Below, piece after piece: positions 28,272 through 51,221 of a DNA stretch of 63,678 bases. Position 1 is the first letter of the stretch. Each line of letters begins with the position of its first letter. The notes under the pieces are model-generated. The model saw only the letters and a list, made by a program, of their open reading frames with translations, had not been told where the DNA came from and searched no databases. The stretch spans positions 1-63,678 of the forward strand of contig LOEV01000234.1 of NCBI GenBank assembly GCA_001516065.1, in the 5' to 3' direction. Both the position numbers and the translations under genes were made by a program. Origin of the DNA: Alphaproteobacteria bacterium BRH_c36. Lineage in GTDB: Bacteria > Pseudomonadota > Alphaproteobacteria > Rhizobiales > Hyphomicrobiaceae.

Positions 28272-29990
28272 ATGTTTCAGCCCCTGCCTACCGCCTCCAT
28301 GTCAGTCGGCCAGTTGTTTGCCGATTCCCGCCGCTTCATCATACCCTTCTATCAGCGCCCCTATTCCTGGACCGTGGAAGAAGCCAGCCAGCTCCTCGAA
28401 GACGTCGCGAACGCAGCCGGAATCGATGACGGGCAGGTGCTTGAGTCCGATTATTTCTTAGGCGCAATACTGCTCCTCAACATCCCGGCCCCACCCGTCG
28501 GGGAGAACGTCCCTGCTTCCCACGACTTCGAGATCGTCGACGGACAGCAGCGCCTCGTCACACTTGTGATCCTGGCCTGCGCATTGCGCGATCTCGAAGC
28601 CTCCCCCGGCACTGAACTGGCCCGACGCCTCGACGCGCTCGCGCGCCCGCAGGCGGATCCGGGCGCCTCGCGCATCGTGCTTTTGGGCGACGATTGGAAT
28701 TTCGTGAACGACTATATAGTTGCTCCTGGAGGATGCCTGCGGCCGGTGGCGCATACCGGAACGCTCGATAGCGCACAGCGGGCCATCATCGACGCCCGCA
28801 ATTGCCTGATTAGGAACCTTTCCGAGTTCACCGCCGCACAACGCGCGGCCTTGTGCAACTACATCTGCGATAGTTGCCACTTCGTCGTCGTCACCACAAC
28901 GGATATCGACCGCGCGCACCGCATATTCATGGTCCTCAACGATCGTGGCCGCCCGCTGCAGAAGAAGGACATTCTGAAAGCCGAGATCCTGCGATCAGTC
29001 GAACCCGAATATCGCGATCAGGCGTTCGCCCTCTGGCGTGACGTCGAAGCGCGCTTGGGCGACCAGATGGAAGCCTTTCTGAGCCACCTCCGCTCTGCCG
29101 CCGGCTATCACCGCCTGCAGGTCATCGCCGGGGTTCGCCGCATCGTCAGGGAATCTGGCAGCGCGCGCGGCTTCCTGCTGGACGTGTTCCGCCCGCTGGC
29201 CGATGCCTACGCCATGATCCTGTCGGCAAGGGACGCTGAAGCCGATATTCCCGCTGAACTGCGTCGCGTCCTTGTCGGACTGACCCGGCTCAGTGGTTCC
29301 GAATGGGTGCCCGCCGCGCTGCGTGTCCTTGGGCGCGATCTTCGCCCGGCGCAGGCAAGCGAGTATCTCGAGGAAATCGAGCGCGCCGCCTTTCTGATGC
29401 GCCTCGTCTGCCTCGGCTCTGGCAAGCGCCAGACGCGCTTTGCGAAAATCACCAGCCTGCTGTCGCAGCCCGATCTGCCTGCGCTCGAAAGTCTCTACGA
29501 ACCGACGCGCGAAGAGCAGCGATCGATATCCTTCAATTTGCGCGATTTGCATGCCCGCAATGTTCAGGCCTGCAAGGGACTCTTGTTGCGCCTCAACGAC
29601 GAACTCCAGCCCGAGGCGCTTTTCGCCAGTCCCACGGACTATACGATTGAGCACGTTTTACCGCAGCGCCCCAAGGCGTCGAGCCTTTGGCGCCAGTGGT
29701 TTTCCGACACCGAAGAGCGCATGGCGCTGACAGCCAGCTTTGGCAATCTCGTCCTTGTCAGCCACGAGCACAACGACGGTGCCGGCAACGACGAGTATCA
29801 TCGCAAGAAGCAGGTCTATGCCAAGCCGACGTCGCGCCAGCTGCAACTGGCGATCACAAGTGAATTTCTATCGAGTGAAGAGTGGCGGCCGGAGCATATC
29901 CGCGAGCGCGAAGCCGCCCTCTTTGCGCTGTTGAACAAGATCTGGCGTCTTGAACTGGAGCCCGCAAGTATCGATGAGGCCGTCGCTTGA
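28272..29990 (+). CDS. DUF262-DUF1524 protein, GmrSD-like (first of a tandem pair)
   Basis: 572 residues. The N-terminal DUF262 domain shows IPFYQRPYSW and the nucleotidase-like DGQQR motif (residues 90-94). A helical middle follows (about 250-400). The C-terminal DUF1524 His-Me-finger nuclease region has IEHVLPQ (His461) followed by FGNLVLVSHEHN and YHRKKQVY. The same domain pair occurs in GmrSD, a type IV restriction enzyme cutting DNA with glucosylated hydroxymethylcytosine, and in related phage-defence nucleases. GGAG seven bases ahead of the ATG supports the start. The paralogue follows after 97 bases. A defence role is inference. Confidence 0.88.
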   Translation: MFQPLPTASMSVGQLFADSRRFIIPFYQRPYSWTVEEASQLLEDVANAAGIDDGQVLESDYFLGAILLLNIPAPPVGENVPASHDFEIVDGQQRLVTLVILACALRDLEASPGTELARRLDALARPQADPGASRIVLLGDDWNFVNDYIVAPGGCLRPVAHTGTLDSAQRAIIDARNCLIRNLSEFTAAQRAALCNYICDSCHFVVVTTTDIDRAHRIFMVLNDRGRPLQKKDILKAEILRSVEPEYRDQAFALWRDVEARLGDQMEAFLSHLRSAAGYHRLQVIAGVRRIVRESGSARGFLLDVFRPLADAYAMILSARDAEADIPAELRRVLVGLTRLSGSEWVPAALRVLGRDLRPAQASEYLEEIERAAFLMRLVCLGSGKRQTRFAKITSLLSQPDLPALESLYEPTREEQRSISFNLRDLHARNVQACKGLLLRLNDELQPEALFASPTDYTIEHVLPQRPKASSLWRQWFSDTEERMALTASFGNLVLVSHEHNDGAGNDEYHRKKQVYAKPTSRQLQLAITSEFLSSEEWRPEHIREREAALFALLNKIWRLELEPASIDEAVA

Positions 29991-30087
29991 ACCGGCGTTG
30001 GCGGCTTGAGGTAATCAGGTTTCTTGACTCCGCCCTCCCCATCCGACTTCTTTGCACGACAAGTTTGCATTCACCAAACCGGCTACC

Positions 30088-31974
30088 ATGACAAGTGCAT
30101 TGGGTTGCGACGACGTCGCTGTCGGCGATCTGCTCAGCGGCCAGAACCATTACGAGATCCCTGCTTTTCAGCGCGACTACTCCTGGGGGGAGACCGAAGC
30201 CCAGCGGCTCTATGACGACATAATCACGGCCTGCGAGACGGCCCGGCAATCGGAAGAAACGCTGCCGTTCTTTCTTGGCACGATGCTGTTTGTGGGACCC
30301 GACGAGCCGCAATCGAGCAGCCGCAGCGCACTGGTGATTGACGGCCAGCAGCGTCTCATCACTCTGACCATCCTGATCGCCGTGCTGCGCGACCTCGTCG
30401 CCGAGCCGGAGGCTGTCACGCTACAAGCCCGGATCGCGCTACAACTCGACACGTTGCACGTGCGCCCACGCCAGGTCGACTCCCACTTCCTGGAACATGC
30501 CGTTCAGCGCCCAGGCGCGACCCGCTTGCCTCGTGGCAAGTCCGACCTGAAGCCGGAAAACGAACCGCAGCGGCGCATGGAGGCGGTCCGCGCCTTGTTT
30601 GCCAATCACATTAAGGCGCTCGAACAGGAACGAAGTTGCGCGATCGCGCGCTTCCTTCTCGAACAATGCCGCGTCCTGCGCATCTGGGCCCCCGATATAG
30701 ACTACGCCTACCGCCTCTTTCTTTCGATCAACAAGCCCGGCCTGCCCCTCAGCGACGAGGATATAGTCCTCGCCGAAGTCATCGGTCCACTGGCGGTGGA
30801 TCAGCGCCGCCGCTACGACACGATCATCGCCCAGATGTCTCGCTATCGCGAACCGCAGCCGAAAGGACGCCGCCAGGACAAGACGTTCTTCACGCATTTG
30901 GCTGTTGCCCGAAGGTGGACGAGAAGCGACCGCATGATCAGCCTGTTGCGACGTGTCGTGGCCCGTGAAGGCGGCCCGCGGCGGTTCGCGGAAACCGTGT
31001 TCGAACCGATGGCGCAGGCCTATTTGGCGACGCGCGGTGAGGGGCCGCGGTCCGCCGGGTCTGAAGGGGTATACGAGGCGATCGACAAATTGCGGGTTTT
31101 GGAGCGGTTCTGTTGCAGCGAGTGGGTCGCCCCGGCGATGATGGCGCTGGTCCGCCTCAGGGACGACGACGAGAAACTTCTGGCTTATCTTCGTGCACTC
31201 GACAGGTTTGCGATTCTGCTGGCGTTGACGCGGGCCACCGCCGAAGACCGCCGCACCGCCTACCGTCCGATTATCGACCTTATCTGGGACAGCGAGGTGT
31301 TTCCCGATCCAGTAGAACTGTTTGCCCTCGACGAACAGCGCCAGGCCGCAGGGGTTCGCCGGATTGCGCTGAAGCTGAAAGAGTCCGCGAACGGTGCCGA
31401 CAAGGCAGTCCTGATTCGCCTCGACGCGCACTTGTCGGGGCGCCCTTTGTCAGCCTACCTCGACCTCGTCGACAAGAGGTTTGTGGGCGAGGATATGCTA
31501 ACCCTCGAACATATCGTGCCGATCGGCGACACGCTGGCGAAGACGAGCAGTTGGTGCCCGGAGTTCTCTCCCATCCGTTACCGCAAGGCTATGGCTAATT
31601 CCATCGCCAACCTCGTTCTCCTGGAGGCAAGCCGTAACAAGGCGGCAGGCCAACTCGGCTTCGCTGCCAAGAAGAAGACCTACTTCCCCGTTGACGACGC
31701 CCACGCACTGTATCTCACCGATCAGATCCGTGCCTCCAGTGACTGGAACCGCGAAACGCTGCAGAGCCGTTACCGAATTATGATGGCGGCAGCCCTTGAG
31801 CTGTGGGGCTTTTCGGGCCCGATCCCGGACTTGCCCGCCCCACCCGGAGAAATCGGCAGTGAACTGTCCAAGGGCGGTGATCGAACGCCAGGAGGTGAGC
31901 CTGAGAGTTCCTTCAAACATATGCGTCGCCGGCCGCGGGCCATCCCCAACAAGGACACCGGCGAACCGGGTTGA
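30088..31974 (+). CDS. DUF262-DUF1524 protein, GmrSD-like (second of a tandem pair)
   Basis: 628 residues. IPAFQRDYSWG and DGQQR (residues 85-89) mark DUF262. The C-terminal DUF1524 part has LEHIVPIGD (His475) followed by SIANLVLLEASRNKAAG and KKKTYF, the full His...Asn...Lys nuclease pattern. A Pro/Gly-rich tail of about 60 residues follows. It resembles the preceding protein in layout but only weakly in sequence, so the pair is not a recent duplication. The start is uncertain: ATG 30088 gives a good DUF262 start; a TTG at 30052 would add 12 residues; neither has a clear ribosome site. Confidence 0.87.
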   Translation: MTSALGCDDVAVGDLLSGQNHYEIPAFQRDYSWGETEAQRLYDDIITACETARQSEETLPFFLGTMLFVGPDEPQSSSRSALVIDGQQRLITLTILIAVLRDLVAEPEAVTLQARIALQLDTLHVRPRQVDSHFLEHAVQRPGATRLPRGKSDLKPENEPQRRMEAVRALFANHIKALEQERSCAIARFLLEQCRVLRIWAPDIDYAYRLFLSINKPGLPLSDEDIVLAEVIGPLAVDQRRRYDTIIAQMSRYREPQPKGRRQDKTFFTHLAVARRWTRSDRMISLLRRVVAREGGPRRFAETVFEPMAQAYLATRGEGPRSAGSEGVYEAIDKLRVLERFCCSEWVAPAMMALVRLRDDDEKLLAYLRALDRFAILLALTRATAEDRRTAYRPIIDLIWDSEVFPDPVELFALDEQRQAAGVRRIALKLKESANGADKAVLIRLDAHLSGRPLSAYLDLVDKRFVGEDMLTLEHIVPIGDTLAKTSSWCPEFSPIRYRKAMANSIANLVLLEASRNKAAGQLGFAAKKKTYFPVDDAHALYLTDQIRASSDWNRETLQSRYRIMMAAALELWGFSGPIPDLPAPPGEIGSELSKGGDRTPGGEPESSFKHMRRRPRAIPNKDTGEPG

Positions 31975-32166: not shown

Positions 32167-35100
32167 ATGTTCGACGGCACCACGATTATTATCATAGCGC
32201 TGGGTTATGTCAGCGCTCTATTCGTGCTGGCGTGGCTCGGCGACCGCATGTTGACGGTTTCCAGCACCATGGGGCGGCCGTTGATTTATGCGCTGTCGCT
32301 GGCGACCTACTGCACCTCGTGGACGTTCTTTGGCAGTGTCGGTCTGGCCGCCGGGACCGGCTTCGACTTCGTTCCCGTTTACCTCGGGCCGATCCTGATG
32401 TTCACGGTCGGCCTGCCGCTCCTTTCACGCATCGTGCGTCTTGCCAAAGGCCAGAATTCGTCTTCCGTTGCCGACTTCCTCGCCGCCCGCTATGGCAAGA
32501 GCCAAGCCGTCGCGGCGCTGGTGACGCTCGTCACAGTGGTCGGCGTTCTGCCCTATCTCGCCTTGCAGCTAAAGGCCGTGTCCGCCTCGATCGAGGTCAT
32601 TCTTGGCGGCGGCCAACTCGTCCCCATTGAGCTGCCGCGCATCGGCTTCGCCGATACCGCTTTTCTAATAACGATTGCGATGATCGTCTTCGCCATCCTG
32701 TTCGGCACGCGCCACGTCGACGCGACCGAGCACCAGGAGGGTCTGATGCTGGCCGTTGCCGCTGAATCGCTGGTCAAGCTGATGGCGTTCCTTGCGGTGG
32801 GCATCTTCATCGTCATGACCTGGAACGGCGGACCGCAGGGCCTCTACCAGCAGGTTCAGGCGACCCCGCCGGTGGCCGAACTCTTCTCCCAGCCCTTCCA
32901 TGGCGGCACCTGGCTGACGGTCACCTTCCTGAGCTTCGTTTGCGCGATCCTGCTTCCCCGCCAGTTCCATGTCGCCGTCGTCGAGAACAATTCGCAGGAT
33001 GAACTGCGTCGCGCGGCCTGGATTTTTCCCCTCTATCTGGTGCTGATCAACCTGCTGGTCGTGCCGATTGCGGCAGCAGGCTTGCTAGCCTTCGCCGACG
33101 GCAGTGTCGCTCCGGACATGTTCGTCATGAAGCTACCGGTCGATTCAGGTGTCGAGTGGGTGTCGATGACCGCCTTCATCGGCGGTCTGTCGGCTGCGAC
33201 CGCCATGGTTATCGTTGAATCCATCGCGCTTGCCATCATGGTGTCGAATGGGGTCGTCGTACCGTTGATCCTGCGCAACCGCGTCGCCGATTACGTCGCC
33301 CAGGAGGACATGGCCGGTCTGCTTTTGATGATCCGGCGGGTCGCGATCATCGTCGTCATGCTGCTGGCCTACGGTGTCTTCGCAGCGCTCGGCGACGCGC
33401 AGATCCTCTCCACGATCGGCCTCATTTCATTTGCCGCGATTGCCCAGCTTGCCCCGGCATTCTTCCTTGGCCTGTTTTGGAAACAAGGCAACGCCAGGGG
33501 TGCGCTCGCCGGGCTGGCGGTCGGCTTCGCCATCTGGTCCTACACGCTGCTTCTGCCGTGGATCGTGAAAGCCGGCTGGATTCCCAATGATATCCTTCTC
33601 AACGGTCCGCTCGGCTTGAGAATGCTGCGGCCCGAGGAGCTCTTTTATCTGAACTTCGAACCGCTGACCCATGGGGTGCTCTGGAGCGTCTGCCTCAATA
33701 TGGCGACATACATCGCCGTCTCCATATTCCACACGCCGGCCCCAATCGAGCGCCTGCAGGCGCACGCCTTCGTCGATGACGATCGCCGGCCGCCGCTGCC
33801 CCAGCCGACCTTCCGGCTGTGGCGCTCCTCCATCACCGTCAACGACATGCAGGAAACGGTCGCTCGCTATCTCGGCCGCGAGCGTGCGGAACGGTCTTTT
33901 CACGAGTATGCGGCAAGCCGTGGGATCGTACTCAGGCCCGATGGCGAGGCAGACCTGCAACTTGTGCGATTCGCAGAGCATCTACTTGCGAGTTCGATTG
34001 GCGCGGCGTCCTCCCGGCTGGTGCTTTCCTTGTTGCTGCGCCGTGAGAACATGACCGGCAAGAACGCCATGCAGCTGCTCGATGACGCCTCCGAGGCGCT
34101 GCAGTATAATCGGGATCTCCTGCAGTCGGCACTCGATCAGGTGCGCCACGGCCTCAGCGTCTTCGACAAGGACATGCGGCTCATCTGCTGGAATCGGCAG
34201 TTCCGCATGATCCTCGGTCTGCCCCCCGAACTGGCGCGCGTCGGTGCGCCGCTCGACCGTATCCTTCGTGCGCAGGCAGAACGCGGCGACTTCGGACCCG
34301 GCGATACCGAGGAGCAGGTCGCCGACCGTCTCCTGCGCCTGGCGGTCACCAAGGAGACCTTCCAGGAGCAGTTAGCCGGTGAACGCATCATCGAAGTGCG
34401 CACCAGCCCGATGCCCCAGGGCGGCATCGTGACCACTTTCTCCGATATCACCGATCGCGTCGCCGCCGCCTCCGCCCTGGCGCGCGCCAACGAAAACCTT
34501 GAGCGCCGCGTGCGCGAGCGGACCGCCGAACTGCTTGACCTCAACGCCGCTCTTGAACAAGCCAAATCCAAGGCCGATGAAGCCAATCTCGACAAAACCC
34601 GCTTCCTCGCCGCCGCCAGCCACGACGTCCTGCAGCCGCTAAACGCCGCGCGTCTTTACGCGACGAGCCTGATGGAGCGACCGCTCGATGGCGCTTCATC
34701 GAATCTTATCCGCAATGTCGATGCGTCCTTGAACGCTGTGGAAGAAATCTTTTCCGCTCTGATCGACATCTCGCGGATGGATGCGGGACGGCTAACCTTC
34801 GACATAGAACCTGTCTCGCTGGCCGAGCTGTTCGAAAACCTGCACGTCGACTTTGCCCCAGCCGCCCGCGAAAAAGGTCTCGATCTCAGAATCGTGCCGA
34901 CATCGCTTTGGGTTCATTCCGACCGCCGGCTGTTGCGCCGCGTTTTGCAGAACTTCGTCTCCAACGCCATCAAGTACACCCGCTCCGGACGGGTCCTTCT
35001 CGGCGCTCGCCGCAAAGGCGGATCGGTCGCGATCGAGGTCTTCGACACGGGTCCAGGCATCCCCGAAGACAAGCGCGAGTTTATCTTCCGCGAGTTCCAG

Positions 35101-35688
35101 CGCCTCGAAGGCGCCGGCAGCACCGTCAGCGGTCTCGGCCTTGGGTTGTCGATCGTCGAACGCATCTGCCGCATTCTCGATCACCCGATCGGCCTCGTCT
35201 CAGAGGCCGGGCGCGGTTCCGCGTTCTCCATTCTTGCACCCCTTGCCGAAGCCCGTCCGCGTGCTGCAAGCGCTTTGGCGCCACGTCCGCAGATCGGCAC
35301 CCTCGAAGGCATCAGAATTATCTGCATCGATAACGAGCCCGCAATCCTGGCAGGTATGCAGTCACTGCTGACCGGATGGAATTGCAACGTACGCACGGCG
35401 GCGAGCACCGCTGAAGCACTGCGCAAGTTCAGCGCGGGCGGACCGATCGATATAATACTGGCCGACTATCACCTCGACCTCGGCACCGGCCTCGATGCAA
35501 TTCACGCCTTGCGAAAGGCAGCCGCAGTACCGCTGCCCGCAATCGTCATCACTGCTGACCATACGCCCGAAGTCGAACGGCTGATCCGGGATTCGGATGT
35601 GGGCCTCCTGCGCAAGCCGCTCAAGGCAGCGGCCCTGCGCGCACTGATGACGCGTTTCCTGCACAGCCGCCGCGCCGCCGCCGAGTAA
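32167..35688 (+). CDS. Permease-sensor hybrid histidine kinase (SSS-STAC-PAS-HK-REC), CrbS/MxtR type
   Basis: 1173 residues. Residues 1-520 form a sodium/solute symporter fold of about 13 helices. Next come a STAC-like helical linker (about 557-640), a PAS domain (about 650-775), a coiled coil (VRERTAELLDLNAALEQAKS), a HisKA box with phospho-acceptor His819 in AAASHDVLQPLNA, an ATPase domain (FVSNAIKYTRSG, DTGPGIP) and a receiver (about 1047-1165) with Asp1100. Proteins of this architecture (CrbS in Vibrio, MxtR in Pseudomonas) control acetate/short-chain carboxylate use with a LuxR-type regulator. That regulator lies convergently 103 bases away. The substrate sensed is inferred. Confidence 0.93.
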   Translation: MFDGTTIIIIALGYVSALFVLAWLGDRMLTVSSTMGRPLIYALSLATYCTSWTFFGSVGLAAGTGFDFVPVYLGPILMFTVGLPLLSRIVRLAKGQNSSSVADFLAARYGKSQAVAALVTLVTVVGVLPYLALQLKAVSASIEVILGGGQLVPIELPRIGFADTAFLITIAMIVFAILFGTRHVDATEHQEGLMLAVAAESLVKLMAFLAVGIFIVMTWNGGPQGLYQQVQATPPVAELFSQPFHGGTWLTVTFLSFVCAILLPRQFHVAVVENNSQDELRRAAWIFPLYLVLINLLVVPIAAAGLLAFADGSVAPDMFVMKLPVDSGVEWVSMTAFIGGLSAATAMVIVESIALAIMVSNGVVVPLILRNRVADYVAQEDMAGLLLMIRRVAIIVVMLLAYGVFAALGDAQILSTIGLISFAAIAQLAPAFFLGLFWKQGNARGALAGLAVGFAIWSYTLLLPWIVKAGWIPNDILLNGPLGLRMLRPEELFYLNFEPLTHGVLWSVCLNMATYIAVSIFHTPAPIERLQAHAFVDDDRRPPLPQPTFRLWRSSITVNDMQETVARYLGRERAERSFHEYAASRGIVLRPDGEADLQLVRFAEHLLASSIGAASSRLVLSLLLRRENMTGKNAMQLLDDASEALQYNRDLLQSALDQVRHGLSVFDKDMRLICWNRQFRMILGLPPELARVGAPLDRILRAQAERGDFGPGDTEEQVADRLLRLAVTKETFQEQLAGERIIEVRTSPMPQGGIVTTFSDITDRVAAASALARANENLERRVRERTAELLDLNAALEQAKSKADEANLDKTRFLAAASHDVLQPLNAARLYATSLMERPLDGASSNLIRNVDASLNAVEEIFSALIDISRMDAGRLTFDIEPVSLAELFENLHVDFAPAAREKGLDLRIVPTSLWVHSDRRLLRRVLQNFVSNAIKYTRSGRVLLGARRKGGSVAIEVFDTGPGIPEDKREFIFREFQRLEGAGSTVSGLGLGLSIVERICRILDHPIGLVSEAGRGSAFSILAPLAEARPRAASALAPRPQIGTLEGIRIICIDNEPAILAGMQSLLTGWNCNVRTAASTAEALRKFSAGGPIDIILADYHLDLGTGLDAIHALRKAAAVPLPAIVITADHTPEVERLIRDSDVGLLRKPLKAAALRALMTRFLHSRRAAAE

Positions 35689-35791: not shown

Positions 35792-36448
35792 CTAATTCGC
35801 CGCGCTTTGCCAGTCGCGATTGTCGATTCTGCTGATCGCGATGACCGCCTGGGTGCGGCTGTCCACACCGAGCTTCTGCAGAATTGCAGAGACGTGCGCC
35901 TTGATGGTGGCTTCCGAAACCGAAAGCTTGTAGGCGATCTGCTTATTCAACAGTCCCTCCCCAAGCATCATCAGGACACGCACCTGTTGCGGTGTCAGCG
36001 AAGAAAGGCGCCCCAGCATGTCGGAGGTCTCTTCGTCGAGTTCGCCACTCAAGTTGACGTCGGGCGGCGTCCACACCTCGCCGCCGAGCACTTTCGCGAC
36101 CGCCTCGCGGATCTGCTCAATGGGCTGCGACTTCGGAATATATCCGGAAGCGCCGAACTCGATGCAGCGCCTGATGGTGCCGGGATCCTCGTTCGCCGAA
36201 CAGACCACGACGGGGATTTCGGGGTATTGCGCCCTGAGGAACATCAGGCCTGACAACCCCTGCACCCCCGGCATGTTCAAGTCGAGCAGCACGAGATCGA
36301 CGTCCCTCGACAGGCCAAGCTGCTCGTTCAGCTGATCGAGCGAGCCGGCCTCCTGGAATGTAGCGTCCATGGAGGCACTTAGGGCCTGATTCAGGGCACC
36401 GCGGAAGAGTGGATGGTCATCCACGATGGTGATGCGGTATTCCGCCAT
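35792..36448 (-). CDS. LuxR-type response regulator (CrbR/ErdR-like)
   Basis: 218 residues. The receiver domain (about 5-120) has the acidic pair Asp10-Asp11 and phospho-acceptor Asp56 in LLDLNMPG, with Lys in IPKSQP. The C-terminal LuxR helix-turn-helix reads LTPQQVRVLMMLGEGLLNKQ then IAYKLSVSEATIKAHVSAIL. It is the probable partner of the permease-kinase with which it converges. Regulators of this group switch on acetyl-CoA synthetase and acetate permease genes. It is divergent from the DUF4212-symporter pair (299-base gap), so it may control that promoter directly. Confidence 0.92.
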   Translation of the reverse strand: MAEYRITIVDDHPLFRGALNQALSASMDATFQEAGSLDQLNEQLGLSRDVDLVLLDLNMPGVQGLSGLMFLRAQYPEIPVVVCSANEDPGTIRRCIEFGASGYIPKSQPIEQIREAVAKVLGGEVWTPPDVNLSGELDEETSDMLGRLSSLTPQQVRVLMMLGEGLLNKQIAYKLSVSEATIKAHVSAILQKLGVDSRTQAVIAISRIDNRDWQSAAN

Positions 36449-37081: not shown

Positions 37082-38914
37082 ATGACCTTCACGCCTCGCG
37101 GCCGGTTGATCAATCCGCGCCTCGGCATCTATTTCGGGATTTTTGCCAGCGGCTTCATTTCGCTGGTCCTGATGCTTTTGATGTTCGAGCAAATGGGTGT
37201 CTCGCGGGGGCTCCTCAGCGGACTCATGCTCGGCGGCGCCTTGAGCGCGTTCCTCATCATATCCGTGGCGGGAATTTCGCGAGAGCCGATCGACTTCTTC
37301 GCTGCCGGCCGCCGCGTTCCAGCAGTCTATTGCGGCCTTGGCCTTGCCGTTTCGACGATGGGCGCCACCGGCATGGCCTGCCTGGCCGGCGCGTTCTTCC
37401 TGATCGGCTTCGACGCCATCTGGATCATGTCCGGCGGGTTCGCCGGGTATGTCGTCATGGCTGTCCTGCTGGCGCCGTTCCTGCGCAAGTTCGGCGCCTT
37501 CACCGTGCCGACCTACCTTGGTCGACGTTTCGACAGCCGCAATGTGCGCATCGTCTCCGCCGCCCTGTTTTCGGTACCGACTCTGTTGATCCTTGCCGCT
37601 GAGATCGGGATAGGGGCCAAGGCAGTCGATTGGTTGCTTGCACAGGGACCAGCGGTCGCGACCGCGGTCATGGTGCTTGCCGTAATCTGCGGACTTGTAT
37701 TTGGCGGTATGCGCGCCCTGACCTGGACGGGTGTTGCAACAGGCGTGGCAGCTCTACTGGCACTCGTCGTCCCCGTCGCCATCATCGCCGTCCTTCTGGG
37801 CTACCTGCCCTTGCCGCAACTAAGTCACGGGCCGATGATCCGCGGCATCGGCAGGTCCGAGGCGATTGTCGGGATGCCGATCGGGCTGCAGCCGCAATTA
37901 GGGCTGTTGTTGCCGTTCGACGGTTTCCAGCCGGTCTTCAAACGCATCGCTGAACCGTTTGGCGCCATCGGGCCGCTGGCCTATTCGCTGGCCACGCTGT
38001 CGGTGATGATGGGGGTCGCCGCAGCACCTTGGATACTGCCGCGCATTGCGACCACGCCGGGGGTCTATGAAGCACGCAAGGCGCTGGGCTGGGCTTGCTT
38101 CTTTTTCGGCTCGATCATGCTGACGCTGATCACGATTGCCGTCTTCATGCGCGAATATCTGATGCAGGCCGCCGGCAGCTCCATTGCCGCCCCGCCCGAT
38201 TGGCTGCGCGATCTCGTCACGCAGCGTTTTGCTCAAATCTCGACCCGCGGCAACCAGATCGGGGTCGGCGAAATCGCGTTCGACCGCGACAGCATTCTTC
38301 TGGCGCTGCCCCATGCGGCCGGGCTACCGGAAGTTTTCGCTAACCTCGCCGCGGTCGGGATACTTGCGGCAGCCTTCGCCGCCGCCAGCGCCGCCGCGCT
38401 GACGCTTGCTGCCATGTTGTCGGAGGATATCGTCAACGGCCTCAACTGGCAGCCGCCAGCCACCACAATTCGGCTCATCGTTGTCCGCGTGATGATTGTA
38501 ATCGTCGTCTCGTTCGGCGGCCTGATCGCCGTAATTGCGCACGGCGATGCCCTGAAGCTGCTGCTCTGGGCGCTGGCATTGACCGCTTCAGCGGGGTTCC
38601 CGGTACTGGTCGCTTCGATCTGGTGGAAACGCGTCAACCAGTACGGGGCATTCGCTGGCATCGTCACTGGATTCGCCGTTGCGATCCTCATGATCCTTGC
38701 TTCAGAAAGCAGGCTGATCGAGCTGTCGAGTGTATTGGCAGCCATTGTCGCAGTGCCCGCGGGGGTTGCCGCACTCGTGACCGTCAGCCTGTTGACCCTG
38801 CCGCCGACCCGGCATTCGCTGGAACTTGTTCGCGATGTGCGAGTTCCCGGCGGGGAAATCCTGTATGATCGCGAGATGCGTATCCTTCGGCAGAAGGAGC
38901 GTCGGCGGACATGA
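37082..38914 (+). CDS. Sodium:solute symporter family permease, VC_2705/ActP-like (first pair)
   Basis: 610 residues with about 13 membrane helices. GISREPIDFFAAGRRVPAVY near residue 60 and VSTMGATGMACLAGAFFLIG are the SSS family start motifs. The cytoplasmic tail is short and basic (REMRILRQKERRRT). Together with DUF4212 it probably takes up acetate, lactate or another small carboxylate with sodium or protons; the exact solute is not readable. GGAC precedes the ATG. The adjacent permease-kinase and LuxR regulator make it a likely target of that system. Confidence 0.9.
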   Translation: MTFTPRGRLINPRLGIYFGIFASGFISLVLMLLMFEQMGVSRGLLSGLMLGGALSAFLIISVAGISREPIDFFAAGRRVPAVYCGLGLAVSTMGATGMACLAGAFFLIGFDAIWIMSGGFAGYVVMAVLLAPFLRKFGAFTVPTYLGRRFDSRNVRIVSAALFSVPTLLILAAEIGIGAKAVDWLLAQGPAVATAVMVLAVICGLVFGGMRALTWTGVATGVAALLALVVPVAIIAVLLGYLPLPQLSHGPMIRGIGRSEAIVGMPIGLQPQLGLLLPFDGFQPVFKRIAEPFGAIGPLAYSLATLSVMMGVAAAPWILPRIATTPGVYEARKALGWACFFFGSIMLTLITIAVFMREYLMQAAGSSIAAPPDWLRDLVTQRFAQISTRGNQIGVGEIAFDRDSILLALPHAAGLPEVFANLAAVGILAAAFAAASAAALTLAAMLSEDIVNGLNWQPPATTIRLIVVRVMIVIVVSFGGLIAVIAHGDALKLLLWALALTASAGFPVLVASIWWKRVNQYGAFAGIVTGFAVAILMILASESRLIELSSVLAAIVAVPAGVAALVTVSLLTLPPTRHSLELVRDVRVPGGEILYDREMRILRQKERRRT

Positions 38915-45696: not shown

Positions 45697-46053
45697 TCAA
45701 CGCGCGGGGCTCAGGATCAGATAGATGAAGCGTGCCACTTCGCTCTCGAGGGGGAATGAAAGCATGCCCATGACCGAATAGCCAAGCAGCCACGGCATCA
45801 CGTAGAAGCGGAACATGTAGAAGAACCATGCGACGAACAACGGCACCAGCGGCTCGACCAGGAAGCCGGGGGTGATCGGTCGGAACAGGCGGATCACAGG
45901 ATCCGTCATTTGCACGAACGCCTTCATGAAGAAGAAGTCGGATGTTGTCGGCAGGAACAGGTTCATCGCCGCCCGGCCGATTAGCGTCCACATGATGGCG
46001 CCGAGCACGAAGTCCAGGATGATAACCCAGAACGGAAAAGGCAGGGGTTCCAT
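45697..46053 (-). CDS. YggT-like small membrane protein
   Basis: 118 residues with three hydrophobic segments (FWVIILDFVLGAIMWTLIG, EPLVPLFVAWFFYMFRFYV and a weaker one near the C-terminus). The central FVQMTDPVIRLFRPITPG resembles the TDP-x-L-x-P-x-R-x-I-x-P signature of YggT proteins, linked to osmotic and ionic homeostasis and to cell division or plastid complexes. ATG 46053 is chosen because the hydrophobic domain starts there; the upstream frame back to 46149 is low in hydrophobicity and has no ribosome site. It lies downstream of the symporter gene with a 127-base gap. Confidence 0.75.
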   Translation of the reverse strand: MEPLPFPFWVIILDFVLGAIMWTLIGRAAMNLFLPTTSDFFFMKAFVQMTDPVIRLFRPITPGFLVEPLVPLFVAWFFYMFRFYVMPWLLGYSVMGMLSFPLESEVARFIYLILSPAR

Positions 46054-46180
46054 GGTGGATGGGGCCCGTTGAACTGTCAGTGAGATAAAAGCAGGGGCAG
46101 GACGTTGAGGTCCAGCCCCTGCAAGGAAGTTAAGGCGACGACCGGCCACTCTATGGGGGTGGCCGGCGGTCTGGATCGGG

Positions 46181-48007
46181 TTAGTGCGATGCGGCCAGGA
46201 TCGTATCGCCGCTCGGAATACGTGTCCGGTCGACCATGTCCTGCACCTCCGCGCTCGGAGCCGGCGTCAGTAGCGAGACCACGACCATGGCGACCAAGCT
46301 CACCGGCATGCCAATGATTCCGAAGCGCAGGTGATCGATGGCCCACACCGGCTCCATGAGGCCGTTGTAGATCATGTAGAGGTACCACGTGCCGGCACCG
46401 AAGCCGAACACCATGCCGGCAATGGCGCCAGCCGTGTTGGCTCTTTTCCACCACACGCCAAGGACAAGCGGGAAGAACAGTCCGGAACACGCGAAGCAGA
46501 ACGCCCACGCGACCGCACCCAGAATTCCCGTCAGCTTCAACGAGGCAACGAGCGCCGCGGCGACACCGATCACCACCAGAAGTACGCGAGCAACGATCAG
46601 GCGCTTCGAGGTTTCCGCCTTCGGATCGATGATCTTGTAGTACAGGTCGTGGCTGAGCGCGTTGGCGATGGCGAGCAGGAGCCCGTCGGCCGTCGACATG
46701 GCGGCAGCCATACCGCCGGCGGCGACGAGACCGGAGATGACGTACGGCAACCCTGCGATTTCAGGCGTTGCCAGCACGACGATGTCCGGCCGCATGAAGA
46801 ACTCGTTGAGCTGTAGGATACCATCACCGTTCTGGTCCTGCACGGCAAGATAACCAACCGCGCTCCAGTTCTTCACCCACTCGATCGCCTGTACGTCGGC
46901 AATGGATTTACCGATGATAGACGTTGCCAGATTTGGATCGATCAACTGCAGTTTCGTCAGCGTGGCGAGTGCCGGCGCCGTGAAGTACAGAAGGAAGATG
47001 AAGAACAGCGACCAGCCCACCGAGCGGCGGGCAGCCGTCACTGTTGGCGTCGTGAAGTAGCGCATCAGGATGTGCGGCAGCGAGGCCGTACCAGCCATCA
47101 TGCACAGAGCCAGCGTGGCGAACTTCCAGGAGTCGAGACCGCCCTGCGGGTCGAAATGCGGCGTCGTCAGTACACTGAGGCCGGCGATTTTTTCTGCAGC
47201 GGCAGTGAGGCCGTACTGAGCTTCCAGTTCCTGGATACGCAGCGCCGCTTCGCCGTAGTTGAAGTGTGGGATGTAGCCGAAGTTCTGCTTGTTGGACATC
47301 CAGATCACCGGCACCAGGTAGGCGATGATGAGCACGATGTACTGTGCCACCTGCGTCCAGGTCACCCCGCGCATACCGCCGAGCATCGAGCAGAGCAGAA
47401 TGCCAAGAAGGCCGAACCACACGCCGGCTTCGAATGGAATGCCGAGTGCGCGCGAGGCGATCGTTCCCGTCGCGTTGATCTGTGCCGTCACGTAGGTGAA
47501 AGAGGCGACAACCAGGATGATCACGGCGCAAAGACGGGCGATGTTGCCGCCGTAGCGCGTGCCGATGAAGTCAGGAACCGTATAGCAGCCGAACTTTCTC
47601 AGGTAGGGCGCCATCAGCGAGTTGACGAGCACGTAGCCGCCGGTCCAGCCGATAACGAACCCGAGATAGGGGTAGCCGCCGAAGTAGATGCCGCCGGCGA
47701 GTGCCACGAACGATGCACCCGACATCCAATCGGCAGCGGTCGCCATGCCGTTGTAGAGCGCCGGCACTTCCCGGCCCGCGACGTAGTAGGCTTCCGCCTG
47801 CATCGTACGCGACAGGTAGCCGATGATCGCGTAGATAGCGATCGTAAAGCACAAGAATAGGATACCGATTGTTTTGGCTTCGAAGCCTATCGTTTCCAGG
47901 TATGCCATCAGGGCAAAGAAAACGAGAAACCCGATAGTATAAACCCCGTAAACGAGGCCTAATTTATCGGTAAATTTGGCGCCCTTCGGCACGTCTTGAA
48001 CAGCCAT
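46181..48007 (-). CDS. Sodium:solute symporter family permease, VC_2705/ActP-like (second pair)
   Basis: 608 residues with about 13 membrane helices. SSS motifs: AEAYYVAGREVPALYNGMAT, ATAADWMSGASFVALAGGIY and LGGMRGVTWTQVAQYIVLII. A loop of about 90 residues between helices (NYGEAALRIQELEAQYGLTA on) is characteristic of the DUF4212-partnered branch. GGGGGGAG seven bases upstream fixes ATG 48007; the in-frame ATG at 48037 lies inside the DUF4212 gene. The likely solute is acetate or a related carboxylate. It is only moderately similar to the symporter at 37082. Confidence 0.92.
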   Translation of the reverse strand: MAVQDVPKGAKFTDKLGLVYGVYTIGFLVFFALMAYLETIGFEAKTIGILFLCFTIAIYAIIGYLSRTMQAEAYYVAGREVPALYNGMATAADWMSGASFVALAGGIYFGGYPYLGFVIGWTGGYVLVNSLMAPYLRKFGCYTVPDFIGTRYGGNIARLCAVIILVVASFTYVTAQINATGTIASRALGIPFEAGVWFGLLGILLCSMLGGMRGVTWTQVAQYIVLIIAYLVPVIWMSNKQNFGYIPHFNYGEAALRIQELEAQYGLTAAAEKIAGLSVLTTPHFDPQGGLDSWKFATLALCMMAGTASLPHILMRYFTTPTVTAARRSVGWSLFFIFLLYFTAPALATLTKLQLIDPNLATSIIGKSIADVQAIEWVKNWSAVGYLAVQDQNGDGILQLNEFFMRPDIVVLATPEIAGLPYVISGLVAAGGMAAAMSTADGLLLAIANALSHDLYYKIIDPKAETSKRLIVARVLLVVIGVAAALVASLKLTGILGAVAWAFCFACSGLFFPLVLGVWWKRANTAGAIAGMVFGFGAGTWYLYMIYNGLMEPVWAIDHLRFGIIGMPVSLVAMVVVSLLTPAPSAEVQDMVDRTRIPSGDTILAASH

Positions 48008-48020
48008 TGTTAGCTCCCCC

Positions 48021-48284
48021 CTATTCGTCGCTGACACCGAACTCGCGGTCGATCTGATCCTGGCGCCAGTTCTGGTACCAGATCATCACAACGAACGCGA
48101 TCAGCGAGCCTTGAACGACGAAGTAGTAGCCGAGTTTCCAGCCGAATATGACGATTTCGTCGAGTTCTCGTGCGAACCACGGCAGCACCATTCCGAAGAA
48201 AAACCAGAGGGTCAGAATAAAGATCGTCAGGCTTCTGGTTTTCGCCCAGTGCTGTGTGTTGCGTTCTGCAACATCATTGGACAT
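48021..48284 (-). CDS. DUF4212 small symporter subunit (second pair)
   Basis: 87 residues, two membrane helices (LTIFILTLWFFFGMVLPWFA and GYYFVVQGSLIAFVVMIWYQ) and a charged tail (NWRQDQIDREFGVSDE). GGGAGGAG precedes the ATG. The symporter ATG follows 13 bases after the stop. It is more typical of the family than the first copy, including the YFVVQGSL...W-Y-x-N pattern. Confidence 0.93.
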   Translation of the reverse strand: MSNDVAERNTQHWAKTRSLTIFILTLWFFFGMVLPWFARELDEIVIFGWKLGYYFVVQGSLIAFVVMIWYQNWRQDQIDREFGVSDE

Positions 48285-48395
48285 TTGTATCTCCTCCCGA
48301 AGATTTTTTTTATCACGGGCTCAACCTGACGCCCGCTTCGGAACATGCTAGCTTGATAAGCGGAAAGTCATCAATCGTTACCTTAGTCGTGGTCC

Positions 48396-49073
48396 ATGCA
48401 GGAGAATAAGCGGTTGGCGAGTGTGGGCGGCGCCCTTAACGGGCTAACGCGGGAGCTTGGCCGTCTGGTCGGGCTGATCATTCCTATTGCCCGCTCAAAA
48501 CCAGTTGAAAGCGTTGATTCTCTTATAGATTTTGTTGGCTCGCGGTCGGCTTATATCGCCCAGACGACGCTCTACGGCTATATGAAGACGCGTATGGGAA
48601 CGAGCTTTCAGCGCTACTTCGAGGACGATGGCTTCTCTGCCACACTACGAGTCGCGGCTGTCAAGGTGGCGGTTGCCTGCGTCGACGATCTGACCATTTT
48701 CGCAGTTGCGAAAGCAGCCGAAAATGGAGGGCTTTCGCCAGCTGCCGCATGTGCTCTTGCAACCTGCTGTTACGAGCGCGCGGTCGATGACGTAATCTCG
48801 CAACGGGACAGGATCCACATTCCCGCAGATGCCGCCGCGAAGTTCAAGCTGAGGGTTCAAGTTACCGATTGGGAAAAGGCCGCGTATCGGGATACAGCAT
48901 TCGTGCGCAGTCCCGAGGCGCTGGTTCGGTATGCGCCGGTCGTCGAGGAATTCATGAATGATGACAGCGAGATCGTCCGTAATTCGATCCGCTTTCGATG
49001 GATAGAGATTCGTAAGGCCTTGACGCAGCGCATGGACACCGAAGCCGTATGCCGGGATTGGTTGGACATCTGA
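48396..49073 (+). CDS. Unknown helical protein between symporter pair and exonuclease-CBS-DUF294 gene
   Basis: 225 residues, predominantly helical and soluble apart from a mildly hydrophobic stretch near residue 25-32 (VGLIIPIARS). Visible features: SAYIAQTTLYGYMKTRMGTS, RVAAVKVAVACVDDLTIFAV, and two neighbouring cysteines in CALATCCYERAVDD. I recognise no domain or catalytic motif. It starts divergently 111 bases from the DUF4212 gene and ends 18 bases before the exonuclease-CBS-DUF294 gene, so it is cotranscribed with the latter. That placement suggests a role in the same symporter-linked control circuit. Confidence 0.85.
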   Translation: MQENKRLASVGGALNGLTRELGRLVGLIIPIARSKPVESVDSLIDFVGSRSAYIAQTTLYGYMKTRMGTSFQRYFEDDGFSATLRVAAVKVAVACVDDLTIFAVAKAAENGGLSPAAACALATCCYERAVDDVISQRDRIHIPADAAAKFKLRVQVTDWEKAAYRDTAFVRSPEALVRYAPVVEEFMNDDSEIVRNSIRFRWIEIRKALTQRMDTEAVCRDWLDI

Positions 49074-49091: not shown

Positions 49092-51221
49092 ATGCCATTC
49101 GCAAGCCTGCCACCCGACATCGGCGGGACGCCATTGACTGCTCTACCGGCCATTTCGCTTGACCTTGAGACGACCGGGCTCGACGTTACCACCGCACGGG
49201 TTATCGAAATTGGCGCCGTGCGCCTTTCCGGGACTACTCGGGGAGCCGCCCCGAATCTCAGCACCTTTGTCGCCCCGGGAGTTCCGATACCCGCGGTTTC
49301 GACCGCCGTTCATGGCATCACTGATGCCGATGTAATCGGCGCGCCGCCGTTCACACAAGCCATCAGAGGTTTTGAGCAGTGGGCGGGACAGGCAGTTGTC
49401 CTTGGATTTGCCATCGGTTTCGATCTCGCGGTTCTGAAAGTGGAGCATGAGCGCTACAGTTTGGCCTGGAGCGCGCCGCGGTCGCTCGATGTCCGTCATC
49501 TCCTGGAATTCCTCTCGCCTGCCCTTGGATCCTTGTCGCTCGACGCGGCGGCCGCCCGTTTTTCGATCGCCGTATCGCACCGGCACCGCGCTCTCGCCGA
49601 CGCCCACCTCGCCGCTTCCGTCTTCAAGGCAGTTCTGCCGATGTTGCGCGATAAAGGAGTCCGCACTCTCGCCCAGGCCGAACGGGCCATCGATCAAAAA
49701 AACAGCCAGAAGATCGCGACCGAAGGAGCGGCCGGCTGGGTCACCACGGCAGCCCCGACTGACGCCGCAGGCAGCATTGCCGATTTTGCGCGCATCGACA
49801 GCTTCGCATTCCGGCACCGCGTCGGCGAACTTATGAATTCGCCGCCGCTCACCATCTCTGGCACGACCGCCTTGCGCACGGCGCTCAAGCAGATGGCCGA
49901 TACGAAGGTCAGCTCGCTGTTCGTCACCGGTGAGAATTGCGAACCGACCAGGATCGTCACCGAGCGCGACGTCTTGCGGGCGCTTGCCCGCGATGACGTT
50001 GCCGCTCTCGACGCCAAGGTATCGAGCGTTGCCTCGCCCAAGCTCGTCACTATCTCGCGCGACGAGTTCGTCTACCGGGCACTCGCGATTATGTCCTCGC
50101 GCGGTTTCCGCCATCTCGGCGTCACCGACGAAGAGGGCCGGCTTGTTGGGGCGCTCAGTGCCCGCGACCTGCTTCGCGGGCGTACCGACGATGCCGTGGC
50201 GCTGGGCCTCAGCATCGAGAAGGCGTCAACACCCGACGAACTCGGTCGGATATGGCTCAACCTGCCAAATGTCGCCAGGGCCTTGGATCTCGAAGAGGTC
50301 GATGTCAGGGATACCACCGCCGTCATTTCGCGCGAGCTTCGCGCCATGACCCGTCGGGCCTGCGAACTTGCCGAGCAGGCATTGGCCACCGAAGGGTTCG
50401 GTCCGCCTCCCTCGCGGTACGCGATGATGGTGCTGGGTTCCGGTGGCCGCGGCGAAAGCCTTTTGGCAATGGATCAGGACAACGCCATCGTTTATGAGGA
50501 GCCCCCCGGCGGCGAGGACGTGGACGCATGGTTCGAACGCCTCGGCCAACGCGTCGCCGATTATCTAGATGCCGCCGGCGTTGTTTATTGCAAGGGCGGT
50601 GTCATGGCCTCCAACGCGGCATGGCGCATGAACGTCGCGCGATGGAAGGAGACAACGAGATCCTGGATCGCGCGCAACAAGCCTGAGAACATCCTCTCCA
50701 GCGATATATTTTTCGACGCTGTCACTGTGCATGGCGAGGCGGATCTGTTCGAAGAGGTTTGGTCGGATGCCGTCGCCCTCGCGGGACAGTCCCGCTCCTT
50801 CCAGAGCCTGCTGGCGCTGAGCGCTACCGGTTCTGACATTCCCTTCGGCTGGACCGGCCGGGTGAAGCTTGTTGATGGTCGCGTCGACCTCAAGCGCTTC
50901 GGCTTGATGCCGATTTTCTCATCCGCGCGCGTTCTCGCTCTGCGCCATGGCATCAGGCAGCGCTCGACCCGCGACAGGCTCACCGCTGCCGCTCAGCTCG
51001 AAGGCATTTCGACAACGCTTGTCACCGATTTGCTGGCGAGTCACAGGTTTTTTCTTCAAGCGATCCTGCGTCAGCAGCTTCGCGATATGACCGCAGGCCA
51101 CAAGCTGTCCAATTCCGTAGCCCATGGCGAGCTTACCGCCCTTGAGCGTCAGGAACTCAACTGGGCATTGCATCAGGTCGGCCGGGTCGCCGACCTACTC
51201 GGCACGCCCACATCCTTGTAA
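49092..51221 (+). CDS. DnaQ-type exonuclease - CBS pair - DUF294 nucleotidyltransferase fusion
   Basis: 709 residues. The N-terminal DEDDh exonuclease (about 18-190) has all catalytic residues: Asp24 and Glu26 in LDLETTG, Asp111 in IGFDLAVL, His165 and Asp170 in HRALADAH. Two CBS motifs (about 242-365) follow, then a DUF294 nucleotidyltransferase domain with GSGGRGES and Asp461/Asp463 in MDQDNAI, then the DUF294 C-terminal helical domain (about 565-700). Most DUF294 proteins carry a cyclic-nucleotide-binding domain at the front; here a nuclease takes that place. It resembles GlnD/GlnE-type nucleotidyltransferases, so protein modification under adenine-nucleotide control by CBS is possible. 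GGGGCG precedes the ATG. Confidence 0.92.
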   Translation: MPFASLPPDIGGTPLTALPAISLDLETTGLDVTTARVIEIGAVRLSGTTRGAAPNLSTFVAPGVPIPAVSTAVHGITDADVIGAPPFTQAIRGFEQWAGQAVVLGFAIGFDLAVLKVEHERYSLAWSAPRSLDVRHLLEFLSPALGSLSLDAAAARFSIAVSHRHRALADAHLAASVFKAVLPMLRDKGVRTLAQAERAIDQKNSQKIATEGAAGWVTTAAPTDAAGSIADFARIDSFAFRHRVGELMNSPPLTISGTTALRTALKQMADTKVSSLFVTGENCEPTRIVTERDVLRALARDDVAALDAKVSSVASPKLVTISRDEFVYRALAIMSSRGFRHLGVTDEEGRLVGALSARDLLRGRTDDAVALGLSIEKASTPDELGRIWLNLPNVARALDLEEVDVRDTTAVISRELRAMTRRACELAEQALATEGFGPPPSRYAMMVLGSGGRGESLLAMDQDNAIVYEEPPGGEDVDAWFERLGQRVADYLDAAGVVYCKGGVMASNAAWRMNVARWKETTRSWIARNKPENILSSDIFFDAVTVHGEADLFEEVWSDAVALAGQSRSFQSLLALSATGSDIPFGWTGRVKLVDGRVDLKRFGLMPIFSSARVLALRHGIRQRSTRDRLTAAAQLEGISTTLVTDLLASHRFFLQAILRQQLRDMTAGHKLSNSVAHGELTALERQELNWALHQVGRVADLLGTPTSL

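Follow-up and report, generated by a model that had tools for sequence, protein, structure and literature searches.

A fused DEDDh exonuclease, CBS pair and DUF294 nucleotidyltransferase as a candidate writer/eraser switch on sodium-coupled carboxylate uptake

Contig LOEV01000234.1 of Alphaproteobacteria bacterium BRH_c36 (63,678 nucleotides, the whole stretch analysed and hereafter the window) encodes a 709-residue protein in which a DEDDh exonuclease is joined to a CBS pair and a DUF294 nucleotidyltransferase. This fusion is a real, conserved form of a protein pair that is known but biochemically unexplored. We hypothesize, with a probability of roughly 0.4, that it functions as a bifunctional, ligand-gated writer/eraser switch on sodium-coupled carboxylate uptake. 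The DUF294 half would take a nucleotide from a nucleoside triphosphate and attach it to a protein component of the neighbouring uptake system, either the DUF4212/SSF symporter or U225 (our label for an all-helical protein encoded directly upstream of the fusion), and this mark would dampen the import of a small carboxylate, for instance acetate or pyruvate. The DEDDh half would hydrolyse the resulting phosphodiester, thereby restoring uptake, and the CBS pair would set the balance of the two activities in response to the adenine-nucleotide level. The activities of both halves, a protein as their target, the direction of the effect, the symporter substrate and the action of the nuclease on the product of the writer are inferred. 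The fusion gene and its domains are as follows.

49092–51221, plus strand: fusion gene, 709 aa, DEDDh exonuclease, CBS pair, DUF294 nucleotidyltransferase and DUF294_C (ATG start; Pfam)
49155–49625, plus strand: DEDDh exonuclease domain, aa 22–178, with D24, E26, D111, H165 and D170 (Pfam RNase_T; epsilon-subunit fold)
49818–50177, plus strand: CBS pair, aa ~243–362 (Pfam CBS in two stretches; fold match)
50262–50687, plus strand: DUF294 nucleotidyltransferase domain, aa 391–532, with GS...R...DQD (Pfam; GlnE fold)
50799–51200, plus strand: DUF294_C helical substrate-binding domain, aa 570–703 (Pfam)

The preliminary description of this DNA had named a single open reading frame with these four domains, and both the frame call and Pfam confirm it (RNase_T, E = 1.6e-25; CBS, 1.2e-22; DUF294, 4.3e-37; DUF294_C, 4.1e-29; all above the curated cut-offs). 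For the DUF294 nucleotidyltransferase family (PF03445 and PF10335), the scores are 127.5 and 101.7 bits against cut-offs of 21 and 22.5. The ratio of non-synonymous to synonymous substitution rates (dN/dS) for the whole fusion is ~0.13 relative to its closest relative, a homolog from the same genus with 78% identity (G003; this single pair only), and the values for the individual parts are 0.09 for the nucleotidyltransferase, 0.12 for the C-terminal part, 0.24 for the CBS pair and 0.27 for the nuclease, the last a ratio of proportions of differing sites (pN/pS) used where the synonymous sites were saturated. The whole-protein ratio, with each domain below 0.3, argues that the reading frame is no accident. 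In an alignment of 16 fusions (that of the window and 15 from genomes of the same order), residues D24, E26, D111, H165 and D170 of the nuclease are invariant, as are G449, S450, R453, D461, D463 and D542 of the nucleotidyltransferase, D542 lying just past the end of the DUF294 Pfam match; in the CBS pair T290 and R292 are invariant and D293 almost so. Across all 43 fusions among the loci compared below, the five nuclease residues are kept without exception and the GS...R...DxD motif is present in 41. In one of the remaining two, L052, the motif is present on reading, an insertion having split the profile match, and the other, L053, is truncated at a contig end. The conservation of the catalytic residues thus suggests that both halves are catalytically intact, as had been proposed from the window alone. 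A cyclic-nucleotide-binding domain was not found in the fusion by Pfam; such a domain lies ahead of the CBS pair in the homologs L057, L064 and L104.

The fusion was surveyed across alphaproteobacteria, as the preliminary description had advised, and it proved to be conserved. The 111 loci compared comprise the window, 30 stretches from genomes of the same order and 80 further loci, the latter being the best 80 of at least 456 confirmed ones and picked with one nuclease and one nucleotidyltransferase pattern, so that pair frequencies among them are biased upward; L047 and L078 have identical rows and are apparently one genome. Sorted by profile search, with gene calls backed by homology, the loci fall into 43 with the fusion, 8 with a nuclease gene directly upstream of the CBS-DUF294 gene and 60 others. 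The 43 (the window, 17 from genomes of the order and 25 from the further 80) are mostly alphaproteobacterial, with carriers including Mesorhizobium, Bradyrhizobium lablabi, Nitratireductor, Hyphomicrobium, Rhodoplanes and Stappia, and three gammaproteobacterial metagenome bins also carry the fusion. Of 289 genomes drawn evenly from the class, that of the window included, 54 match the fusion at E = 1e-25 and 12 besides its own genome have a one-frame fusion as judged by position and frame, although one of these is reported in two same-frame pieces and two rows contain one internal stop by the count of the tool. In 18 more genomes of the class the two parts lie within 6 kb of each other on one contig, and in 16 of these within 200 bp. 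Among plasmid records, 115 match the fusion query, of which 4 cover 80% of it, all at less than 60% identity, and in the best annotated plasmid matches (H1–H3) DUF294 and the 3'-5' exonuclease are separate genes. Neither the fused architecture nor any biochemistry of a CBS-nucleotidyltransferase/DEDDh pair was found in the open-licence papers covered by the search.

Both domain trees place the fusions together. In the nucleotidyltransferase-domain tree (110 rows, L053 being too short to include), they form one group of 43 rows, made up of 42 fusions and L050, an open reading frame broken at a contig end, with a Shimodaira–Hasegawa-like approximate likelihood ratio test (SH-aLRT) support of 92; under midpoint rooting this group is placed among the nuclease-upstream loci, with the cyclic-nucleotide type outside. 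In the nuclease-domain tree (107 rows), all 43 fusions lie on one side of a branch with a support of 93. Both are quick trees with SH-aLRT support only and a midpoint root. The simplest reading of these sequences is that a single event fused two adjacent genes and that the unit was probably inherited thereafter.

The predicted structure of the fusion has a mean predicted local distance difference test (pLDDT) score of 90.9 and a predicted template modelling score of 0.90. Based on VIA-align comparisons, the nucleotidyltransferase half resembles the N-terminal half of GlnE (1v4a; Z 26.5, root mean square deviation 4.0, 344 residues aligned), the C-terminal half of GlnE (3k7d; Z 24.8, 310 aligned) and DrrA (6yx5; Z 25.5, 303 aligned); both GlnE and DrrA modify proteins. 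The nuclease half matches the Pol III epsilon subunit (2gui; Z 21.1, 165 aligned), and the best CBS fold match of the CBS pair is the AMP-bound protein 2rif (Z 18.4, 125 aligned). A sequence search found no solved DUF294 structure. It had been suggested that the enzyme might act on a protein or on RNA; since the nucleotidyltransferase fold best matches GlnE, a protein target is favoured in the model and RNA is less so.

GlnE, the glutamine synthetase adenylyltransferase/deadenylylase, is also a precedent for a writer and an eraser on one chain. However, GlnE contains two nucleotidyltransferase domains and its eraser works by phosphorolysis, whereas the proposed eraser of the fusion is a DEDDh hydrolase and the fusion contains CBS domains; nor is there a Pfam match of the fusion to the GlnE family at E 0.01 or a GlnE family among the best 25 of 38 NCBIfam matches. 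The uridylyltransferase/uridylyl-removing enzyme GlnD offers a second comparison, being a nucleotidyltransferase joined to an unrelated hydrolase and to ligand-binding regulatory domains, in this case of the HD and ACT types rather than DEDDh and CBS. The nuclease half shares its fold and all five catalytic residues with DnaQ/PolC-type DEDDh exonucleases, but it is joined to CBS-DUF294 rather than belonging to a polymerase or helicase.

The setting of the fusion, which the preliminary description had not covered, points to carbon-uptake control.

48396–49073, plus strand: U225, all-helical 225-aa protein, 18 bp upstream of the fusion (neither a Pfam nor an NCBIfam match)
48380–48388, no strand assigned: ACTU-like (CrbR-type) motif ACCTTAGTC in the divergent promoter; it lies 96 bp upstream of DUF4212, and the annotated U225 start follows 8 bp later
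48021–48284, minus strand: DUF4212, small subunit of a sodium:solute symporter (TIGR03647; Pfam, NCBIfam)
46181–48037, minus strand: large subunit, VC_2705-family sodium/solute symporter (TIGR03648, 678 bits; NCBIfam)
45697–46149, minus strand: YggT-like small membrane protein beside the symporter (Pfam YGGT just below the cut-off)
37082–38914, plus strand: second, more distant sodium:solute symporter (264 bits to TIGR03648, below its cut-off)
35792–36448, minus strand: CrbR-like response regulator, receiver and LuxR helix-turn-helix (Pfam)
32167–35688, plus strand: CrbS-like hybrid histidine kinase, SSF, PAS, HisKA, HATPase and receiver (Pfam; SSF at 22.7 bits against a cut-off of 22.8)

The DUF4212 and VC_2705-family genes are divergent from U225 and the fusion. 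The CrbS/CrbR-like pair lies ~13 kb from the fusion, with the kinase, the regulator and the second symporter 10 to 17 kb upstream. Two GmrSD-type restriction-enzyme-like genes in tandem (28272–29990 and 30052–31974) adjoin the kinase gene, and the YggT-like family has 22 matches in 21 of the 111 loci. In the stretches around the 43 fusions, DUF4212 occurs near 20 and U225 near 16. Where a fusion has no DUF4212 nearby, 18 of 21 distinct genomes possess a symporter scoring over the cut-off elsewhere (12 of 12 in one set and 6 of 9 in another; the fusion of the genome of L079 is not in the set). In 59 genomes of the order, a VC_2705-type symporter over the cut-off is found in 24 of 30 genomes with a true DUF294 protein (more than 60 bits) as opposed to 6 of 29 without one (Fisher p = 6e-6, uncorrected for kinship).

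U225 itself was detected by iterated search in 21 of the 111 loci, 20 of which also contain DUF4212. In 12 of the 21, U225 and the next module gene either share 4 bp or are on the same strand and no more than 60 bp apart, and the others show overlapping called starts, a wider gap, or genes that are apart or on opposite strands. Its model is helical (pLDDT 87.3), with a best Foldseek E-value of 0.68 and a best VIA Z-score of 5.7, a value that is meaningless for helical bundles, and it may still belong to a known family.

The candidate promoter motif was assessed with the core pattern ACYWWNGTC, derived from the CrbR-dependent sites in Table 4 of PMC5715377 and drawn by eye with the intergenic sequence of the window in view; the window and L036, which has the identical site, provide no independent support, and the other 39 DUF4212 regions are independent. 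At the level of the core pattern, the window has the ACTU-type inverted repeat of CrbS/R (acetate) regulon promoters, at 48380–48388. Within 300 bp upstream of DUF4212 the strict core is present in 10 of 41 loci, compared with 1.5 expected from Markov shuffles and with 14 of 401 control regions ahead of unrelated genes from these loci (Fisher p = 1.2e-5). For the fused and nuclease-upstream loci the count is 8 of 25 versus 4 of 203 controls drawn from these two classes (p = 2.5e-6), and for the other class it is 2 of 16 versus 10 of 198. Together, the GlnE-like fold, the linkage to the symporter and the CrbR-type motif would fit a mark placed on the uptake system or on U225.

A related system is known from pseudomonads. 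According to PMC9927547, pp_0354, encoding a CBS protein, and pp_0353, encoding an RNase_T protein, form one operon in Pseudomonas putida KT2440, and homologs of the two genes adjoin actP and yjcH in two other pseudomonads. Expression of pp_0354 is increased on acetate and ErdR binds its promoter, as reported in PMC8402216. The P. fluorescens counterpart Pflu5625 is described in PMC5715377 as a protein with cAMP-binding, CBS and nucleotidyltransferase domains, for which a role in regulating proteins through nucleotidylation is predicted. The pseudomonad systems resemble the fusion in combining a CBS protein with a DEDDh-type (RNase_T) partner, in their case under CrbR/ErdR control within the CrbS/R (MxtR/ErdR) regulon. 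They differ in that the pair is encoded by two genes with the nuclease downstream, in having ActP/YjcH instead of the VC_2705/DUF4212 symporter, and, for Pflu5625, in an extra cyclic-nucleotide-binding domain. Deletion of pp_0353 or pp_0354 did not affect growth on 20 mM acetate, while growth on pyruvate was impaired in pp_0353, mxtR, erdR and actP-I mutants and not in the pp_0354 mutant (PMC9927547, growth experiments). This asymmetry is expected if the writer inhibits and the eraser relieves, because the mark would stay in place without the eraser, whereas without the writer there would be nothing to erase.

The preliminary description had stated that a separate DnaQ-like gene lies near DUF294 in other bacteria, and this holds for all 8 nuclease-upstream loci and for 53 of the 60 other unfused loci, the latter figure being biased upward by the way the loci were picked. 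Overall the pair occurs in four arrangements, namely fused, with the nuclease gene directly upstream, with a membrane-anchored nuclease protein nearby, and with a soluble nuclease downstream. Six genomes (L050 excluded) have no nuclease near the unfused locus, and four of them carry a close copy elsewhere (48–85% identity, E ≤ 3.4e-50). Some nuclease lengths, such as the 590 aa of L083, probably reflect early in-frame starts rather than true extensions. In L091 and L100, CBS-DUF294 directly follows U225 with no nuclease between, and each of these two genomes encodes a member of the nuclease family at another place. At the third metal ligand, 38 of the 54 nucleases of the unfused class (for instance L111:9420–10139) have Glu aligned in place of Asp, 7 of the 38 being aligned over only part of the domain; none of the 43 fusions and none of the 9 nucleases of nuclease-upstream loci has Glu at this position.

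An alternative version of the module occupies the same chromosomal site in three loci of the same genus, L055, L057 and L059. The flanking genes of the window, Sel1 and YkuD (with OpgC in two of the three), here surround DUF4212, a symporter 38–39% identical to that of the window, a 619–620 aa DUF294 protein, whose cyclic-nucleotide-binding domain was checked in L057, and a 719–748 aa protein with the DEDDh nuclease as its C-terminal domain; L057 also has a receiver-domain gene. It looks as if one version has replaced the other at this site, which suggests, without proving it, that the two are equal in function. U225 was also considered as a remnant of the 700–750 aa nuclease protein and was rejected, no similarity between them being found. 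Nuclease proteins of this kind are encoded near a DUF294 protein and a symporter in six loci.

L057:10700–12862, L055:9990–12236, L059:4560–6719, L060:8662–10809, L058:10281–12419 and L092:10131–12242: C-terminal DEDDh exonuclease with N-terminal hydrophobic segments

The hydrophobic segments number two in L055 and L057, and two or three overlapping ones in L058–L060. In an alignment of L055 and L057–L060 the N-terminal part has weak similarity to histidine kinases (hhalign probability 91 over 85 columns) and a search against the PDB returned four kinases at E-values of 6e-5 to 8e-4; reading the alignment by eye, the phosphoacceptor His and the ATP-binding residues appear to have decayed. PAS-like stretches below the Pfam cut-offs are present in both nuclease proteins of L092 and in L095, and in neither L057 nor L063. 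L092, from Magnetospirillum moscoviense, encodes one such nuclease protein on either side of its CBS-DUF294 gene. The membrane-anchored form suggests that the nuclease serves in signal output and not in repair. We tentatively propose, as an idea that may well turn out to be wrong, that a DEDDh nuclease took on the role of erasing protein nucleotidylylation and was joined to a GlnE-like writer, so that a single chain reversibly switches a sodium symporter. In related bacteria the eraser would instead form the output domain of a membrane sensor whose kinase has decayed, and nutrient sensing would then drive demodification directly.

Several observations weigh against a switch on uptake. To our knowledge, no DEDDh enzyme removes nucleotides from a protein, and a literature search on related terms did not find this activity; a fold shared with GlnE by itself shows no function. 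No DUF4212 is present in the stretch examined at 23 of the 43 fusion loci, and in 3 of the 21 genomes considered above (G021, G049 and G058) no symporter at any position scores over the cut-off. The strict core is missing from 31 of the 41 regions upstream of DUF4212, including those of L055, L057 and L059. For the fusion gene, only 5 of 42 regions immediately upstream (400 bp) contain it; for the DUF294 gene of unfused loci (300 bp upstream), the counts are 0 of 8 in the nuclease-upstream class and 3 of 56 in the other class. Because the core is scarce in front of fusion and DUF294 genes, it marks the promoter of the symporter and not the DUF294 gene as such. In addition, among the six genomes without a nuclease near the unfused locus, G006 (67% complete) has no nuclease match at all, and the best match in G057 has 35% identity and may be a housekeeping DnaQ. 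The nucleotidyltransferase domains of pp_0354 are presumed by analogy to its counterpart Pflu5625. Finally, the P. putida authors proposed that the nuclease acts in mRNA decay, leaving other mechanisms open (PMC9927547).

This last proposal favours an explanation in which one chain carries two independent outputs, the nuclease trimming or degrading transcripts for carbon uptake or glyoxylate metabolism and the nucleotidyltransferase modifying another target, with the fusion resulting from the merging of an operon and from shared control by the CBS pair. The apparent origin of the fusion from directly adjacent genes agrees with it, as does the finding that only the nuclease mutant of the P. putida pair has a phenotype in the experiments cited (PMC9927547). 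However, the fusion has no Pfam match to an RNA-binding domain at E 0.01, and the retention of the pair in four arrangements, together with the single group formed by the fusions in both domain trees, favours a joint reaction. We consider independent outputs not very likely.

Another alternative is a small-nucleotide signal. DEDDh enzymes include oligoribonucleases that degrade dinucleotides, and CBS domains bind nucleotides; the nucleotidyltransferase could make a short nucleotide second messenger that the DEDDh half degrades in the manner of an oligoribonuclease, and the presence of the nuclease as the C-terminal domain of membrane-anchored proteins in relatives would suit such a role. Yet the closest folds are GlnE and DrrA, and not synthases of nucleotide messengers, among the 50 matches listed, an absence that is no exclusion. 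On balance this explanation is unlikely.

It was also raised earlier that the two halves might edit RNA tails, with the nucleotidyltransferase extending the 3' end of a small RNA or tRNA and the nuclease trimming it. Both chemistries are compatible with this, but DUF294 and DUF294_C fold like GlnE, and, as a weak point, tRNA- and poly(A)-polymerase families are not among the family and fold matches listed, which makes RNA tail editing quite improbable. It is very improbable that an exonuclease of DNA repair or proofreading was attached by chance to give the nuclease half: its closest sequence relatives are DnaQ/PolC-type exonucleases, but the genes that recur around it serve transport and sensing, a distinct DnaQ-like gene (30% identity) exists in the same genome, and relatives bear the nuclease domain on membrane-anchored proteins.

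Pairs of a CBS-nucleotidyltransferase and a DEDDh nuclease recur in Proteobacteria and are members of the acetate regulon in Pseudomonas. By joining the two halves physically, the fusion argues that their reactions belong together, and it offers a single protein for purification; the one-sided mutant phenotype published for P. putida leads to the clear prediction that the double mutant recovers. If the writer/eraser switch on carboxylate uptake is true, it would represent a new eraser chemistry for reversible protein nucleotidylylation.

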